Assembly: GCA_012840125.1 (NCBI GenBank)
Contig: DULZ01000078.1
Location: 1-57,335 of the forward strand
Reading direction: 5' to 3'
DNA length: 57,335 nucleotides
Origin: Clostridia bacterium
Lineage (GTDB): Bacteria; Bacillota; DULZ01
Shown here: positions 24,189-33,786 of the stretch, piece by piece
How the letters are laid out: each line of letters begins with the position of its first letter
Numbering within the stretch: position 1 is the stretch's first letter
Notes under the pieces: generated by a model
What the model was told of the DNA's origin: nothing
The model's database searches: none
Seen by the model: only the letters and a program-made list of their open reading frames with translations
Program-made: the position numbers and the translations under genes

Positions 24189-24884
24189 TTATTCTTCCAG
24201 GGAGAACTTGTACCCTACCCCCCAAACGGTTTTGAGGTATTTCGGTTTGGAGGGATCCTGTTCAATCTTGGTCCGGATGCGGCGGACAAAGACGCTGATG
24301 GAGCCCAGGTCCGCCACGTATTCCTCATTCCAGAGCACTTTAAACAGCTGTTCCCTGGTAAACACCTGCTCCGGGTGGCCGGCCAAAAAAGCCAGCAAAT
24401 CAAATTCCTTGGCCGTCAGGTCTACTTTTTGGCCGCGCACCACCACCGTGCGCTGCTTGCAGTTAATGGTCAAGTCCGGGTAAGAAATGATGTCGCTGCC
24501 GCTCCCTTGGTCTGGGACGGCGGATACGCGCCGCATCAGCGCTTTCACCCGCAGCACCAGTTCAATGGGACTAAAAGGTTTGGTCAGGTAGTCATCCGCG
24601 CCCAGGTTAAAACCGACGCTTTTATCGATGATTTCACTCTTGGCCGACAAAAGCATCACCGGCGTATGGGAGGAGGCCTGGCGAATGAGCCGCAGCACAT
24701 CAAAACCGTCCTTTTCCGGGAGCATAATGTCCAAAATCACCAAATCCGGTTTTTCTCTTTGGAACATTTCCCAGCCCTGCTCCCCGTCCGCTGCGTACAG
24801 CACCTCAAACCCTTCCTTCACCAGGGCTTGCTCCACCACTTTCTTGATGTTTTCTTCGTCATCAACCAGCAGGATTCTCGCCAT
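24189..24884 (-). CDS. OmpR/PhoB-family response regulator
   Basis: The N-terminal receiver domain begins MARILLVDDEEN, with the acidic pair near residues 8-9, the phosphorylated aspartate in LVILDIMLPEKDGF (about 51) and the conserved lysine in LTKPFSPIEL. The C-terminal winged helix has the PhoB-type DLTAKEFDLLAFLAGHPEQVFTREQL and ends in SISVFVRRIRTKIEQDP...LKTVWGVGYKF. A GTG three codons upstream (24893) could also start the protein; both starts overlap the end of the kinase gene, so the two are translationally coupled. Its partner is the haem-type sensor encoded just upstream. Targets are unknown; none of the neighbours carries an obvious repeat for it. Confidence 0.93.
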   Translation of the reverse strand: MARILLVDDEENIKKVVEQALVKEGFEVLYAADGEQGWEMFQREKPDLVILDIMLPEKDGFDVLRLIRQASSHTPVMLLSAKSEIIDKSVGFNLGADDYLTKPFSPIELVLRVKALMRRVSAVPDQGSGSDIISYPDLTINCKQRTVVVRGQKVDLTAKEFDLLAFLAGHPEQVFTREQLFKVLWNEEYVADLGSISVFVRRIRTKIEQDPSKPKYLKTVWGVGYKFSLEE

Positions 24885-26568
24885 ACTCCTCACCTGTACC
24901 CCCCTCCACGGGCCTGCCTACCGGCAGCCCTATAGTAAAAGTACTTCCTTTGTTCACTTCACTGGAGACACTGACCCAGCCCCGGTGCATTTCCACCAGT
25001 TCCTTGGCCAGCGCCAGCCCCAATCCGGAGCCGCGGTAGCGCCGGGCGTCGGAATTGTCCACTTGACGGAAACGGTCGAAGATGTAAGATAAATCCTCGG
25101 CCCTGATCCCAATGCCCGTGTCACTGACGGCAATCAGTACCTCTTCTTTATCCCGGTCATAATCGACGGTGATACGGACTTTCCCTCCCTGGGGCGTAAA
25201 CTTCACCGCATTATCTGCCAGGTTCAACACGGCGCGGCGAAATTTTTCCGGATCCGCCTTCACCAGGGGCACTTCCGTCAAGAACTCGGTGCTGAATTCA
25301 ATCTCTTTCTTCCGGGCTAAAGGCGCGATCACTCTTTCCACGGAATCGATCACATCAACCACGTCCATGGTTTCCGGCCGGAGCCGGTAGCGTCCGGCCT
25401 CGATTTGGGCTAAGTCCAGCAAATCATTGATGAGCATGAGCAGGTTTTCCCCGTTGGTTTTGATTTCTTCCACGTTTTGCCGGTTAACCTGGTCACCCGC
25501 AGGCAACTGCTGCTGCAGCAATTCGGCAAAAGCGATAATGGCCGTCAGAGGGGTGCGCAGTTCATGGCTCATGGTGGCCAGGAAACGGGACTTGTGCTGG
25601 TTAAGAGTCTCCAGCTCCTTATTGGCCGTTTCCAAAGCTTGCTGCTTGGCTTTCAGCTCTTGGTTGGCCAGTGTTAATTCTTCCGTTCTCTTGGCCACCT
25701 GCGCTTCCAGGTTAGTATAGAGCTCCCTCAACTGGTCTGCCATATCTTGAAACTGCAGGGCCAGGTCTTTAATCTCACCTTCTGCTTCCAACTCGCGCAA
25801 GTTCAGGTTCCAATTGCCCCGGCCCAACTGGACGGCAGCCGATTTCAACTGCTGCAGCGGAATGGTCACGGTCCGGTTTAGCAGCAGGTAAATGGCGGTC
25901 AAAGTAAAACCCAACACCAGCAGGGTAAAACCGAAATGCCGGTAAGCATTGGAACGGAGACTGCTGATAAAGATGTCCATCGGCATTAAGACACTGATGG
26001 CGCCGGCCAGGTCGCCCAGCTGGTAGCCTTCCTTCGGGTAGCCCGCTATATCCGGTTCTCCCGCCGGGGACCCGTGACAAGGCAAGCAAGATTCATTGGC
26101 GTGGAGGGGAATCATGTAGCGGAAATAATGCCTCCCGTCAATCACTTCCTGCCCCCAGGCTTCTTTGAGGCCGTCATTGTCCATAAAAGCATGCAAAACC
26201 CGCTGCTCAAAATCATCGGGCTGGTTGAGGGGATTCCTGGCCGTTAAACGAGTTTGCTTGATCTTGTAATCGGTCCACTGGCCGAAAATCTCACTGGAGC
26301 CCGTCCCCACCGCCGCCGGGTTTAGATGCTTGAATTCAAAGTGCCCGTGGGGGCAATAGTTGATGCGGTCCTGGTTCCTGGCGATGAATTCCCGGGTGGC
26401 CAAAAGCTGCAGGGTAATCACACTGGCTTTTTCATGGAGCTCCAGGTAAGCCTGTTTCTGGAGCTGCCGGTAGTCCCAAAAAAAGCTGGCCAGCATCACA
26501 AGCACAATAGTAAGAGTCGTAGCCAGCATAAAGCGAAAAGAAAGAGAATGACGCGACAATTCGCTCAC
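24862..26568 (-). CDS. Sensor histidine kinase with c-haem-type DUF3365 (Tll0287-like) domain
   Basis: A 568-residue membrane kinase. A first membrane helix (about 12-30) is followed by an extracytoplasmic Tll0287-like/DUF3365 domain holding the haem c motif CLPCHG at 161-166. A second helix (about 210-230) leads to HAMP, a coiled coil, HisKA with the H-box MSHELRTPLTAI, and an ATPase domain with N-box LADNAVKFT, DTGIGIRAED and GSGLGLALAKEL. Covalently bound haem outside the membrane points to sensing redox state or a gas such as NO, CO or O2 rather than a nutrient. The frame starts with GTG at 26568; a TTG three codons on (26559) has the better AGGTGA site. It is first in the operon with the response regulator. 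Confidence 0.93.
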   Translation of the reverse strand: MSELSRHSLSFRFMLATTLTIVLVMLASFFWDYRQLQKQAYLELHEKASVITLQLLATREFIARNQDRINYCPHGHFEFKHLNPAAVGTGSSEIFGQWTDYKIKQTRLTARNPLNQPDDFEQRVLHAFMDNDGLKEAWGQEVIDGRHYFRYMIPLHANESCLPCHGSPAGEPDIAGYPKEGYQLGDLAGAISVLMPMDIFISSLRSNAYRHFGFTLLVLGFTLTAIYLLLNRTVTIPLQQLKSAAVQLGRGNWNLNLRELEAEGEIKDLALQFQDMADQLRELYTNLEAQVAKRTEELTLANQELKAKQQALETANKELETLNQHKSRFLATMSHELRTPLTAIIAFAELLQQQLPAGDQVNRQNVEEIKTNGENLLMLINDLLDLAQIEAGRYRLRPETMDVVDVIDSVERVIAPLARKKEIEFSTEFLTEVPLVKADPEKFRRAVLNLADNAVKFTPQGGKVRITVDYDRDKEEVLIAVSDTGIGIRAEDLSYIFDRFRQVDNSDARRYRGSGLGLALAKELVEMHRGWVSVSSEVNKGSTFTIGLPVGRPVEGGTGEEYGENPAG

Positions 26569-27794: not shown

Positions 27795-29015
27795 CTATCC
27801 CTTCCGCAGTTCTTTTACCTCCATGTAGCGGTCTCTGGCCCAATTATTGTAAAACGGAGTGCCGTCCTGATTTCTGATGCCGTAATAGAAGTGCCGCAAC
27901 GCTTCGTTGATGTCACCTTTACGTAAATACAGCTCCCCCAAAATCAGGCATAACAGCTGTTCATGTTCCGGCTCCAGCCTAAGATTAGTGTTACCGTAAT
28001 AAGCCTGATAGTAATTGTCAAAAGCCAGGTTCCAGGACCGGTGGTAGAGTTCCTCATCCCCTACATCCCGGTAGAGCCAGGACAGGGCCAGGTACAGTTT
28101 GCCCAGGGCTAAAGGATTCTCTTTTTCCGCTTCCGCAAAATAAATGGCTAGATAGTAGCTGAGAAAAACCCGGTCAATGGAGAGGGGATCGGCCGGCGGC
28201 AAAGAAACCTTGCCCTGCAACTGCAAAGCCTTTTCCCGGTAAGGACGCAGCCTTTCCGGGCTGACATGGCCCAGCTTGTCAAAATCGTTATAGTGTTCAC
28301 TGTACAAGCAGTAAGGACAAGTGCGAATATTATACCAGAGCGGTTCAAAATCCACATAGATTTCCCTTAAATCATTTTCCCGTTTATTCAGTCTTAACTT
28401 GCTCATCCTTGGGTTCTTTGCCACAAACTCACCGTCGCACACCGGGCAAGTAACCCGCTTTTCCAATAAGAAATCCTTATCAGTTTCCCGGGCCAAGATC
28501 CCGTAGACCTTATGCCCTTCCGGCAGCAGTCCCAGGCGGTCCAAAGGCTGCGCCTGGTCAACAGGAGACGCCACCGCCGGCTCCCCCGCCAGGGCCTCAT
28601 TGTTGGCCGCCTGCACCGGTTTGATCTCACAAGCCTCCAACAACCGTGCTTCCAACTGCCTGATGCGGCGGCTTAAGGTGGTCATGATGGCAAAAGCCAT
28701 TTCCGGCACTTCCCGGATTAAGCGCTGGAAATTCTCTTTCGGGATACTGAGCACGATGACATCGGTCTCGGCAATACCGGAGGCACTACGGGGCAAATTA
28801 TCCAACATGGCCATTTCCCCGAAGAATTCTCCCCGGCCCAGTACGGCAAATTTTTCCTGGACACACTTAAAGGAATTCCCGTATACCGCGACCTCTCCCG
28901 AAAGAATGATAAACATCTCGGTGCCGACATCGCCTTCGTAGCAAATGAAATCTCCCTTGGCAAACCGTTTAACCGTACCCAGTTTTTTCAGTTTTTCCAA
29001 AACTTCTAGATTCAT
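27795..29015 (-). CDS. Cyclic nucleotide-binding domain protein with DUF2225
   Basis: A protein of about 406 residues. An N-terminal Crp-type cyclic nucleotide-binding domain (about 1-125, with GDFICYEGDVGTEMFIILSGEV, GRGEFFGEMAMLDNLPRSAS) is followed by a DUF2225 region (about 190-400) that has two zinc-like cysteine pairs, CPVCDGEF and CPYCLYSE, and a C-terminal repeat-like helical part with the spacing of TPR motifs (LYLRKGDINEALRHFYYGI). There is no DNA-binding helix-turn-helix, so it is not a Crp regulator. The start at 29015 (MNLEVLEKL) has a GGAGGG site; the frame extends 56 codons further upstream, but those residues look non-coding. The function is unknown. Confidence 0.85.
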   Translation of the reverse strand: MNLEVLEKLKKLGTVKRFAKGDFICYEGDVGTEMFIILSGEVAVYGNSFKCVQEKFAVLGRGEFFGEMAMLDNLPRSASGIAETDVIVLSIPKENFQRLIREVPEMAFAIMTTLSRRIRQLEARLLEACEIKPVQAANNEALAGEPAVASPVDQAQPLDRLGLLPEGHKVYGILARETDKDFLLEKRVTCPVCDGEFVAKNPRMSKLRLNKRENDLREIYVDFEPLWYNIRTCPYCLYSEHYNDFDKLGHVSPERLRPYREKALQLQGKVSLPPADPLSIDRVFLSYYLAIYFAEAEKENPLALGKLYLALSWLYRDVGDEELYHRSWNLAFDNYYQAYYGNTNLRLEPEHEQLLCLILGELYLRKGDINEALRHFYYGIRNQDGTPFYNNWARDRYMEVKELRKG

Positions 29016-29140
29016 TTGATCCCTCCGGTATGCACTTGTTTTCCATCTTGCTAAACCGCCGTCATGATCTATGCTATTCATATTTACGCCGCCATGCCCC
29101 GGAATACCTGCATCCCTTGAAAATAATGGGTATATAAAAA

Positions 29141-29172
29141 AGACGGCACCGGGAATCATCCCGTCACCGTCT
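29141..29172 (-). terminator. Terminator of the CO dehydrogenase operon
   Basis: A two-part stem (AGACGG/CCGTCT and CGGGA/TCCCG with a 3-nt internal loop) is followed on the minus strand by TTTTTT. It lies 26 bp past the cooS-like stop codon. Confidence 0.8.
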
Positions 29173-29197
29173 CCTGCCGCCAAGCTGACCGTCCCAC

Positions 29198-31111
29198 CTA
29201 AATGTGCAAAGCCCCTCGCTTCTGCTTGATCACTTGATAAAGGTCCTCCGCCACCTGCTCGGGATCATCCCCCAGCATCACCTTGCCCCCGGTAAGACCC
29301 TCCAGACCGGCGGTGAGGACCCGTACCAGCTCCGGCCCTCCCGTCACCGGCGGCACCGGGGAGAGATGGGTGGTCAGCCCAAAAGCCAGAGCAAAAATAC
29401 CGTCGATGGTGGCTTTTTGTTCCATCCATTCCGGCGCGCTGACCGCCACGGGCAGGTCTTTGGTGTCCACACCCAGGGCTTCGGCCAGGGCGGTCACCAG
29501 CATGGAAATGCGCCCCGTATCGGTACAGGTGCCGAAGCTCAAGACCGGCGGGATCTGCAGAGCCCCGCCAATCTCCTTCAGCCCGGGACCGGCGTAGGCC
29601 AGGGCCTCCAGATTAGCCAGTCCGGCTACTTCCAGGCCGTGATTGCCGCAGCCCCCGGCAATGACCAGGATATCCCTTTTGATCAGTTCTTTCGCCAGGT
29701 TCACGGTCATCCAGTCTTGCGGGCCGTTTTTTAAAGTGGCACAGTTGACGATGGCCACCACGCCCTGGATTTTACCCTGCTTGATCACCTCCAGCAGTGG
29801 GTCCAGCTTGCCGCCTAAGGCTTGCAAAACCGCCTCCGTGGAGAAGCCGGCGACGGCCTTTTGCCGGCGGGACGGCACGTAGGGCTTGACCTTCTGCTTG
29901 CGCAGGGGATAATTGGCCAGGGCCCACTCCAGGAGCTGCCGGGCCATTTCCACCGCTTCCGGGGGCTTGTAATCCAGGTTTTTCTCCACTTTAGGCAGGC
30001 GCACCAGGTCATTCACCGACGCCAGGGTCACCTGGTATTTCTCCGCATATGGATGAAGATTGGGCGGTGAACAATTCTCATCCATGGCGAACAAATCCAC
30101 CGCCCCGGTGGCCAGCAGGGGCTCAATGGAGAGCCAGTTCCCGGTATGGCCTACAAAGACCTCATCCATGGGAAAACGCTGCAGCATTTCCTGCCCCGTT
30201 TCGATGGAACCGACAATCCTAATCCCTTTAGCGCCTATTTGCCTTGCTCTCTCCTGCCACTCCGGTTTTTTGGCTTCCATGAGGGTAGCAATACCCAGCC
30301 AGGGTTCGTGGCCGTTAAAAACAATATTCACGTAATCCGGGTCCAGGATGCCCAGGTCCATGTTCACTTCATGAGGGGCCGGGGTGCCGAAGAGGATATC
30401 CTGCACCATTTCCAGGGGAATCTGGGCCCCGTAGATGCAGGCAATGCTCAACCGGAGGGCCTTGCGCGCCAGGGAAATATAATCACCATCCACGTTGGTC
30501 AAGCAGCTGGCGGTGGCATCCTTGATTTCATGGAGCACCCCCGCGGGAAAGATGGCTAAATCCTGCCACACTTTTTGCCTGGCGATAGGAGCAAAAGCGG
30601 TAATGGTTTTCGACGGCTCCCGGTAATCGGCGGACAGCTCCGCCAAGAAAAAGTCCGCCAGTCTTTCCGCTTGCTCCTCTACGGTACCGGCGGTGCTTAA
30701 GCCCAGTTTTTCCAGCATATAAGTCAACTTACCGGTATCCGTGATCTGAAAAGGCGTTTTCCCCTGGGCCGTAGCTTTCAAAGTGCTGAAGGCCATGTAG
30801 GCATGATGGGAATAGGTGGCGGTGCCCATCACATTCCGCAGCAAGAAATCCCGCATGGCCATAGCATCGGGGCTGATGCCGCACACCCCCAGTTCCGCCC
30901 CTGCTTTGGGCGAAATCCGGCAGGGCCCGTTGCTGCAGAGCTGGCAGCTCACTCCTTCCGTGCAGAAGTTGCAGCGGATCTTGGCTTGCGGGTCAAACCG
31001 GTCAAAGACGGTGCTCATCCCGTCGGGCTTCAGCCTTTTTTCATACATTTCCTGTACGGAATCATGGTAGCTGACCCGCCCGTCAATACGGAAAGTACTT
31101 TCTTTGCCCAT
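29198..31111 (-). CDS. cooS: CooS-family carbon monoxide dehydrogenase with altered C-cluster ligand
   Basis: A 637-residue homologue of Ni-Fe CO dehydrogenase (CODH-II is 636). Aligned by eye to my recollection of CODH-II: the B-cluster cysteines are at 56, 59, 64 and 77. For the D-cluster, C47 aligns with Cys39 but Cys47 of CODH-II is Ser55, and an extra C50 makes a CX2C motif, known for [2Fe-2S] D-clusters. Of the C-cluster ligands, H268, C347, C457, C488 and C529 are kept, and so is the catalytic lysine (K566). The GICCTG motif, however, reads GSIETG (301-306), so the Cys295 ligand is Glu304. The start at 31111 has GGGAGG; the open frame runs 32 codons further upstream. It is second in an operon with a 4Fe-4S protein; no cooC or acs genes are in the window. 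Ordinary CO oxidation is doubtful. Confidence 0.88.
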   Translation of the reverse strand: MGKESTFRIDGRVSYHDSVQEMYEKRLKPDGMSTVFDRFDPQAKIRCNFCTEGVSCQLCSNGPCRISPKAGAELGVCGISPDAMAMRDFLLRNVMGTATYSHHAYMAFSTLKATAQGKTPFQITDTGKLTYMLEKLGLSTAGTVEEQAERLADFFLAELSADYREPSKTITAFAPIARQKVWQDLAIFPAGVLHEIKDATASCLTNVDGDYISLARKALRLSIACIYGAQIPLEMVQDILFGTPAPHEVNMDLGILDPDYVNIVFNGHEPWLGIATLMEAKKPEWQERARQIGAKGIRIVGSIETGQEMLQRFPMDEVFVGHTGNWLSIEPLLATGAVDLFAMDENCSPPNLHPYAEKYQVTLASVNDLVRLPKVEKNLDYKPPEAVEMARQLLEWALANYPLRKQKVKPYVPSRRQKAVAGFSTEAVLQALGGKLDPLLEVIKQGKIQGVVAIVNCATLKNGPQDWMTVNLAKELIKRDILVIAGGCGNHGLEVAGLANLEALAYAGPGLKEIGGALQIPPVLSFGTCTDTGRISMLVTALAEALGVDTKDLPVAVSAPEWMEQKATIDGIFALAFGLTTHLSPVPPVTGGPELVRVLTAGLEGLTGGKVMLGDDPEQVAEDLYQVIKQKRGALHI

Positions 31112-31126: not shown

Positions 31127-31171
31127 AATCATGTTTTCTGTATTATGCCCGTTATATGGGAAAACATGATT
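31127..31171 (-). promoter_or_regulatory. Stem-loop covering the intergenic junction and cooS ribosome binding site
   Basis: The exact 12-bp inverted repeat AATCATGTTTTC / GAAAACATGATT (31127-31138 and 31160-31171) has a 21-nt loop. It spans the end of the upstream Fe-S gene. With one bulge the stem extends to CCCAA / TTGGG, where TTGGG is the front of the cooS site TTGGGAGG. There is no T-run, so it is not an ordinary terminator; control of cooS translation or mRNA processing is inferred. Confidence 0.5.
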
Positions 31172-32303
31172 TGGGAGGGGCGGGAATCTTCCCCTTCTCC
31201 ATGGCAATCCGCATCATCTGTTCTTTCTTGTTCACAGGAGGCACATAAATCTCTTGCCGCCGCACCAGAGCGATGGCACCATGCTTGCATCCCCGGATGC
31301 AGGCACCGCAGCCTAAGCATCTCTCCTGGTTTAAAACGGCTTTCCTGCTCTTCTTGTCACCCGGCACCCTTTCTTCCACTTTTATGGCACGGACATGGCA
31401 CCGCTTGGCACAGCTGCCGCAGCCGGTACACAAGTCTTCGTTAATACGCGGGATAAAATTGCTGGGATGAGCGGCCAGAATGCCGTATTCATTAGTCTTC
31501 CGCAATGCTTCACAGCAGCAGCCGCAGCAGTGGCAAATGTAGGCCGGCTTCTTCTGCACATTATCGGCCAAGTGCACTAAACCCAGTTCCTCCGTCTTGT
31601 CCAGCACCCGCAGCAGTTCATCCACGGTGGCCCGGCGGGCAAAGCCCCTTCTGATGAGCCATTCAGCGGCATTGCCCAGGGAGGTGCACACATCTTCAAT
31701 GGGGGCATCGCAGTTAGTCCCCAAATGCTGGGCCTTGTGCCGGCAGTAGCACATAGTCAGGGCGCCGCCCCCCGCATCCCGGATCATTTCCGAAGCCTTC
31801 TCATAGGATAGGACTTCCGTCTCCACCTCCTCGGGCATCAGGCTTTCGTAAGCCCAGGTCTGAAATAATTTGGTCTGGGAATTGAACAGCTCCTTAACCA
31901 CTACCGGATCTTGGAAATAAGCATGGAACAGCTCCGCCAGTTCCTGCAGCGGGAGCTTGTCAGTCACCCGCATGAAAGTATACTCAAAGAAGCCGATGAC
32001 CAGGGGGCTGAGCATGTAATAGACGGTATCGTCACGGGGAATGTCGATTACCAATCCCTTGTTGGCCATGTCGTCCAAATGCTGCCGCAATTCCTCTGGG
32101 TCCAGGCCCATGATGTCCACCAGCTTTTCAAACCTGACCAGGCCCTGCGGGAATTTGGCGCCGATCATGGCCTGGACTTCCGTATACATGATGTGTAGTA
32201 TGCGCATCAGAGTCTCATTGAGCGGCGCCCCCACCGGGTTTTGATCGAGTCTTTGGGCCAGTGCCTTAAACACATCTTGTTTCGCCACGCTTAAATGTCC
32301 CAT
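31152..32303 (-). CDS. 4Fe-4S protein with helical N-terminal domain, partner of cooS
   Basis: A 383-residue soluble protein. Residues 1-130 look like a winged-helix-type region (LDPEELRQHLDDMANKGLVI). The middle has CYCRHKAQHLGTNC...VC (about 184-205) and CHCCGCCC (about 257-264). The end has two ferredoxin motifs, CTGCGSCAKRCH and CLGCGACIRGCKHG, for two [4Fe-4S] clusters. The extra cysteine groups could bind further Fe-S clusters. It is the first gene of the cooS operon, 40 bp upstream of cooS, and is likely its electron carrier or a redox-responsive regulator; neither is proven. The ATG follows GGGGGAG. I recognise the build as a 4Fe-4S dicluster protein seen in other anaerobes but know no function for it. 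Confidence 0.8.
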   Translation of the reverse strand: MGHLSVAKQDVFKALAQRLDQNPVGAPLNETLMRILHIMYTEVQAMIGAKFPQGLVRFEKLVDIMGLDPEELRQHLDDMANKGLVIDIPRDDTVYYMLSPLVIGFFEYTFMRVTDKLPLQELAELFHAYFQDPVVVKELFNSQTKLFQTWAYESLMPEEVETEVLSYEKASEMIRDAGGGALTMCYCRHKAQHLGTNCDAPIEDVCTSLGNAAEWLIRRGFARRATVDELLRVLDKTEELGLVHLADNVQKKPAYICHCCGCCCEALRKTNEYGILAAHPSNFIPRINEDLCTGCGSCAKRCHVRAIKVEERVPGDKKSRKAVLNQERCLGCGACIRGCKHGAIALVRRQEIYVPPVNKKEQMMRIAMEKGKIPAPPKSCFPI

Positions 32304-32846: not shown

Positions 32847-32885
32847 GGAGGCAAGGTCATTAAATCCAAGGGGGAGTAGACGTTG

Positions 32886-33311
32886 ATGTGGAAAGAGAAA
32901 TACCGTCTCGGAGTACAGAACATCGATGAACAGCATGAAGAACTCTTCCGCAGGGTGTCTGAATTTGTCCTAGCTCTTCGCCAGGATGGATCTTGGGAAG
33001 AAAAATTGCCAAAAGTCAAAGAAACCCTGGCCTTCATGCAAAGCTACGTCATCACTCACTTCGCCGACGAAGAAGCCTACCAGAGAGAAATGCAGTACCC
33101 TGGTTATGAAGAGCACCGCCGGATACATGAGGACTTTAAAGCGGAAGTCCATGAGTTCGCCAGGCGGTTTGAAGAGGAAGGCTATTTGGAAGACACCGTG
33201 CAGCAGTTTGCCGGTAAGCTTCTTGCCTGGTTAATCAACCACGTGGCGGCCACTGACCAGCAGATAGCCCATTTTGTTTCGGGACAAGGGAGGTCAAATA
33301 ATGAAGGCTGA
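32886..33311 (+). CDS. Bacteriohemerythrin
   Basis: A protein of about 141 residues with the hemerythrin four-helix fold and the di-iron ligands in NIDEQHEELF (H), SYVITHFADEEAYQ (H and E), YEEHRRIHEDF (two H) and WLINHVAATD (H, D). Such proteins bind O2 reversibly and in anaerobes serve as O2 sensors or scavengers; some respond to NO. The open frame can also start at a TTG three bases earlier; the ATG is preferred. It overlaps the start of the CheX gene by 11 bp, which links it to signalling. Confidence 0.92.
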   Translation: MWKEKYRLGVQNIDEQHEELFRRVSEFVLALRQDGSWEEKLPKVKETLAFMQSYVITHFADEEAYQREMQYPGYEEHRRIHEDFKAEVHEFARRFEEEGYLEDTVQQFAGKLLAWLINHVAATDQQIAHFVSGQGRSNNEG

Positions 33312-33786
33312 GTATGTCAATCCTTTTTATCAAGCGACTATTAATGTTTTCAAGCTGATGCTTGATATAGATGTGATGCGGGATACGTCCAAAGCGCTGC
33401 AGCAGATGCTGGGGAAACAGGAAGTAGGCGTGATCATTGAAGTGGAAGGGGACTTGTCCGGGTACATTCTCTATCGCTTCCCGGATACCATGATTCTGGA
33501 AATGGTGAAAATCATGTCCGGCCTGGAATTCGATCAGGTCGACAGCTTCGTCACCTCGGCCCTGGCCGAAGTATCAAATATCATCAGCGGCAACGCGGTT
33601 TCCAGTTTGTTTAACCAAAACTACCGCTGCAACATCAAACCCCCGCGGATTGTTTTGGAAGACAGCAAACCCATATGCCTGGAATGCCCACCGGGCGAAC
33701 CGGTACTCAGGCTGCCCTTGCAGACCCCCATCGGTAAGCTGGAGATCGACATGGCCCTCAAGGAAACCAGCCAACGGGTGCAGTAA
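33301..33786 (+). CDS. CheX-type chemotaxis phosphatase family protein
   Basis: A 161-residue protein of the CheC/CheX/FliY family. The active-site pattern of CheX (E-x2-N) appears in LAEVSNIISGNAVSSLF (about 90-106). CheX proteins dephosphorylate CheY-P; here it may act on a receiver protein elsewhere in the genome, as no che genes are in the window. The start at 33301 follows GGGAGG and lies inside the last codons of the hemerythrin gene. Co-transcription with an O2-binding protein suggests a role in the aerotactic or redox response, which is inference. Confidence 0.85.
   Translation: MKAEYVNPFYQATINVFKLMLDIDVMRDTSKALQQMLGKQEVGVIIEVEGDLSGYILYRFPDTMILEMVKIMSGLEFDQVDSFVTSALAEVSNIISGNAVSSLFNQNYRCNIKPPRIVLEDSKPICLECPPGEPVLRLPLQTPIGKLEIDMALKETSQRVQ

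Follow-up and report, generated by a model that had tools for sequence, protein, structure and literature searches.

A clostridial CooS-V-type protein with a predicted Fe/S/O hybrid cluster in place of the CO dehydrogenase C-cluster

Does a protein classified as a carbon monoxide dehydrogenase (CODH) still act on CO when one of its C-cluster cysteines is replaced by glutamate? The question is raised by a gene in the 57,335-nucleotide contig of a Clostridia bacterium (DULZ01000078.1) that was analysed here as a whole and is called the window. The original prediction had placed this gene at 29198-31111; the coordinates proved right and the gene was found on the minus strand, with an ATG at 31109-31111 preceded within a few bases by a ribosome-binding-like GGGAGG, and a TAG stop at 29198-29200. 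Translation of the same interval on the plus strand returned several stops. A longer open reading frame from a TTG at 31207, which overlaps the upstream gene, is a less likely alternative.

The 637-residue product was compared with family models and with proteins of known structure. It scored 810.9 bits against TIGR01702 of NCBIfam (cut-off 478) and contains the Pfam domain Prismane, while the hybrid cluster protein (HCP) models TIGR01703 and NF003658 returned 50.4 and 50.8 bits, below their cut-offs of 360.8 and 367. The top PDB match was 7b7q, the CooS-V protein of C. hydrogenoformans, with 883 bits and 62% identity over 623 aligned positions, whereas true CODHs in the PDB reached at most 413 bits. 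Aligning the product with CooS-V and with true CODHs located the following features, all on the minus strand; ligand roles are those predicted from the CooS-V counterparts.

29198-31111, minus strand: gene for a putative hybrid-cluster CODH homologue of CooS-V type (clade D, structural group D-1), 637 aa, matching TIGR01702, Prismane and 7b7q
30962-30973, minus strand: D-cluster motif C47-N-F-C50 (CX2C, type III), aligned with C38/C41 of CooS-V
30881-30946, minus strand: B-cluster cysteines C56, C59, C64 and C77, aligned with C47/C50/C55/C68 of CooS-V
30812-30814, minus strand: Tyr100, where CODHs have the acid-base histidine
30308-30310, minus strand: His268, cluster ligand (CooS-V His259)
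30200-30202, minus strand: Glu304 (GAA), aligned with CODH Cys295 and CooS-V Glu295
30071-30073, minus strand: Cys347, cluster ligand (CooS-V Cys338), with Asn346 just before it
29741-29743, minus strand: Cys457, cluster ligand (CooS-V Cys449)
29648-29650, minus strand: Cys488, cluster ligand (CooS-V Cys480)
29525-29527, minus strand: Cys529, persulfide-forming ligand (CooS-V Cys521)
29420-29422, minus strand: Glu564, second carboxylate ligand (CooS-V Glu556, HCP Glu494)
29414-29416, minus strand: Lys566, conserved active-site lysine (CooS-V Lys558)

The central claim of the original prediction, that glutamate takes the place of Cys295 in a GSIETG motif (GGT TCC ATC GAA ACG GGG), was borne out, as E304 aligned exactly with that cysteine and the loop held no shifted cysteines, which rules out a displaced ligand. 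The remaining C-cluster ligands, the B-cluster and the lysine had been described as kept, and each was recovered in the alignment. The CX2C motif was likewise present and, with C56, completes the type III D-cluster pattern of CX2C followed by X5-C. Two residues had received no mention, Tyr100 and Glu564, the latter lying in a MEQK motif two residues ahead of the conserved lysine. The window protein shares with the Ni,Fe-CODHs (CODH-II and CODH-IV, and the two Cys-type enzymes of its own genome, L002 and L003) the fold, the B-cluster, five of the six C-cluster ligands and the lysine, and differs from them in the Cys295-to-Glu exchange, the CX2C D-cluster and the additional Glu564. The ligand set of a functional Ni,Fe-CODH with Cys295 is not present, E304 standing there, and the acid-base histidine of these enzymes is absent, its place being taken by Y100.

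The crystallised relative gives these exchanges a structural meaning. Structures of CooS-V (7B7Q, 7B7T, 7B95, 7B97 and 7B9A; PMC9311411) contain a [4Fe-3S-nO] hybrid cluster with Glu295 as a ligand, and Jeoung et al. described its rearrangement with redox state (PMC9311411); the original prediction was therefore right to name a hybrid-type cluster for C. hydrogenoformans CODH-V. In the same study, C38 and C41 bind a bridging [2Fe-2S] cluster, in agreement with the [2Fe-2S] D-cluster that had been proposed for the window protein, and Glu556 binds Fe3 as the counterpart of HCP Glu494 (PMC9311411). All ligand positions named there for CooS-V are identical in the window protein. The two proteins share the B-, D- and hybrid-cluster ligands, the tyrosine at the acid-base position and the second glutamate; they differ in GSIETG versus GSIESG, and the window protein is known from its sequence. 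The features by which Inoue et al. defined structural group D-1, for which they predicted an HCP-like site (PMC6344411), are a type III D-cluster, glutamate for the first C-cluster cysteine, tyrosine for histidine and a retained lysine. Every D-1 feature that was tested was found and no feature sets the window protein apart from the group, so that by its sequence it is an ordinary further member of the known CooS-V group, and both the protein type and its reading had already been published.

The glutamate is a stable property of this group. Each of the 93 aligned Glu-type sequences has Glu304, C50, Tyr100 and Asn346, and Glu564 occurs in every one of them bar a truncated sequence. In a 109-row tree, a single branch (SH-aLRT 99) separates the 92 Glu-type rows used from the Cys-type rows, so that the window protein groups with CooS-V and apart from Cys-type CODHs; this is a quick tree in which the Cys-type rows have long branches. 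Comparison of the gene with its nearest relative (L034) returned a dN/dS of about 0.04, an approximate value as dS is high (1.8), and silent changes dominate. The gene is under purifying selection, as the original prediction had held, and decay to a pseudogene is ruled out; mainly silent divergence, together with the same glutamate in 93/93 relatives, also disposes of a sequencing error or chance at E304. The presumed rarity of the exchange did not survive the comparison, the group being common and previously described: of 399 genomes sampled from the phylum, 62 have a match at E <= 1e-200.

Glu564 and Asn346 are found in the seven Cys-type sequences that branch nearest, three of which have Tyr100 too. 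Since the second glutamate is already present in these sequences, it probably arose, to judge from this tree, before the Cys295-to-Glu exchange. Four clade D relatives (L022, L023, L024 and L033) keep the cysteine in a GHVCEG motif, with Asn at the acid-base position and a CX2C D-cluster; they match structural group D-2 and also have an HCP-like Glu before the Lys.

The analysis also covered the surroundings of the gene and the CODH complement of related genomes. Two neighbours lie close to cooS in the window.

31152-32303, minus strand: protein of 383 aa that ends in a two-[4Fe-4S] ferredoxin domain and begins with about 280 unannotated residues, 40 bp upstream of cooS
27795-29183, minus strand: cyclic-nucleotide-binding domain fused to DUF2225, possibly cNMP-responsive, directly downstream of cooS

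The [4Fe-4S] neighbour was not found beside cooS in relatives, nor was the cNMP-binding/DUF2225 gene, apart from a single weak match to the cNMP domain close to cooS in L035. Clustering of open reading frames around cooS in 80 relatives showed no recurrent neighbours beyond near-kin synteny in Desulfosporosinus. The two genes were therefore rejected as operon partners, a [4Fe-4S] donor and a cNMP sensor. This agrees with the literature, in which clade D genes are described as mostly lacking operon partners (PMC13056359). Elsewhere in the window, a histidine kinase that carries a Tll0287-like domain at its N-terminus adjoins a response regulator (24862-26568 and 24189-24893, minus strand), and a bacteriohemerythrin gene followed by a CheX-like phosphatase gene (32883-33786, plus strand) is divergent from cooS.

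The window's own genome also encodes the two Cys-type CODHs, 37% and 34% identical to the window protein, one belonging to a CooF-CooS-oxidoreductase cluster (L114), the other lying about 1 kb from an acetyl-CoA synthase gene. In a genome of the same family, a Cys-type CODH gene (G002:C36:17598-19460) carries one in-frame TAG, which may reflect an error, a pseudogene or readthrough. Among 45 genomes searched whole, which were picked by us from close relatives so that the fraction is not a rate for the group, 16 contained a single TIGR01702 protein, of Glu type in each case (G003, G029, G050, G064, G065, G068, G071, G073, G076, G077, G079, G082, G083, G089, G092 and G098). Completeness is 99% for G003, 94% for G029 and 98% for G050, the others being isolates or metagenome-assembled genomes of unstated completeness. 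No acetyl-CoA synthase was found in any of these 16, while it was present in all four tested genomes having further CODHs. The isolates Lutispora thermophila, Fonticella tunisiensis and Clostridium tetanomorphum appear to have the CooS-V-type protein as their sole CODH, with no acetyl-CoA synthase. These 16 genomes, with this protein as the sole CODH found and no acetyl-CoA synthase, disagree with a published statement restricting the type to genomes that have other CODHs, and they speak for a role that does not depend on CO metabolism.

On these grounds the window protein is very probably a homodimeric CooS-V-type enzyme with an Fe/S/O hybrid cluster, acting as a low-potential small-molecule reductase and not as a CO dehydrogenase. 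The sequences themselves show the conserved ligands, the clade and the distribution; the cluster type, the absence of nickel and of CO activity, and the redox gating are inferred from CooS-V, crystallised and 62% identical. The hybrid cluster would replace the [Ni-4Fe-4S] C-cluster, with His268, Glu304, Cys347, Cys457, Cys488, Cys529 and Glu564 as its ligands. Electrons from ferredoxin-like donors may enter through the [2Fe-2S] D-cluster between the subunits and pass to the [4Fe-4S] B-clusters. The cluster would alternate between a reduced, open [4Fe-3S] form, able to take up and reduce a small oxidised substrate, and an oxidised form closing the channel through a Cys529 persulfide. A cluster that switches in this way should serve a low-potential reductase of small molecules.

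Retention of CO/CO2 interconversion by a Ni-CODH that tolerates the exchange would fit the NCBIfam label of CO dehydrogenase equivalog, the conserved remaining ligands and lysine, and the genetics of M. acetivorans, cited in PMC6344411, which suggest that D-1 enzymes may participate in CO oxidation. This is highly improbable in view of the behaviour of the relatives: CooS-V has no nickel and neither oxidises CO nor reduces CO2 (PMC9311411), and CODH-II with the C295E exchange neither bound nickel nor oxidised CO (work cited in PMC9311411 and PMC6344411). Tyrosine for the acid-base histidine, the second cluster glutamate and the occurrence in genomes with no other CODH or acetyl-CoA synthase speak against it as well. 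C. autoethanogenum does not need its orphan clade D gene cooS2 for autotrophy (PMC4895105), and the gene of little effect in that organism was identified as its clade D gene (PMC13056359). A sensor of redox or nitrosative stress, signalling by cluster rearrangement instead of turnover, is quite unlikely. Redox sensing has been proposed for clade D (PMC13056359), the CooS-V cluster changes shape with redox state and a cyclic-nucleotide-binding gene lies downstream in the window; that neighbour, however, is not beside cooS in relatives, no conserved signalling domain or partner was found, and the buried cluster, electron-transfer chain and gated gas channel suit catalysis equally.

HCP itself offers another model, since its hybrid-cluster ligands, Glu494 among them, agree with those in the active site of the window protein, and CooS-V reduces hydroxylamine. 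The reaction is slow, with a kcat/KM of 20 M-1 s-1, about two orders of magnitude under that of HCPs, and no reduction of NO was detected (PMC9311411). The original prediction, which had suggested a substrate other than CO, for example hydroxylamine, was thus supported in its first part by the CO inactivity of CooS-V, while hydroxylamine, given this low efficiency, is probably not the true substrate. Sequence similarity to HCP is weak (E about 1e-8), the dimeric CooS architecture with its D-cluster is foreign to HCP, and the potentials reported for CooS-V are about 300 mV lower than those of E. coli HCP (PMC9311411). The window's own genome moreover encodes a separate HCP, as do 13 of the 16 genomes with a sole CODH, so that simple replacement of HCP is not supported. 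An HCP-like function is accordingly unlikely. A broader view, in which proteins of the CooS-V type work as stand-alone, low-potential reductases on an undiscovered substrate, apart from both CO/C1 metabolism and HCP, is put forward tentatively, as a possibility somewhat short of probable.

Annotation pipelines name this group CO dehydrogenase, yet its characterised member is inactive on CO; CO metabolism is therefore over-predicted in such genomes. The modest new element lies in the distribution, namely isolates with the CooS-V-type protein as sole CODH and no acetyl-CoA synthase, which make the physiological substrate testable free of interference from true CODHs. If these proteins are stand-alone reductases, the 16 sole-CODH genomes would permit a clean genetic test.
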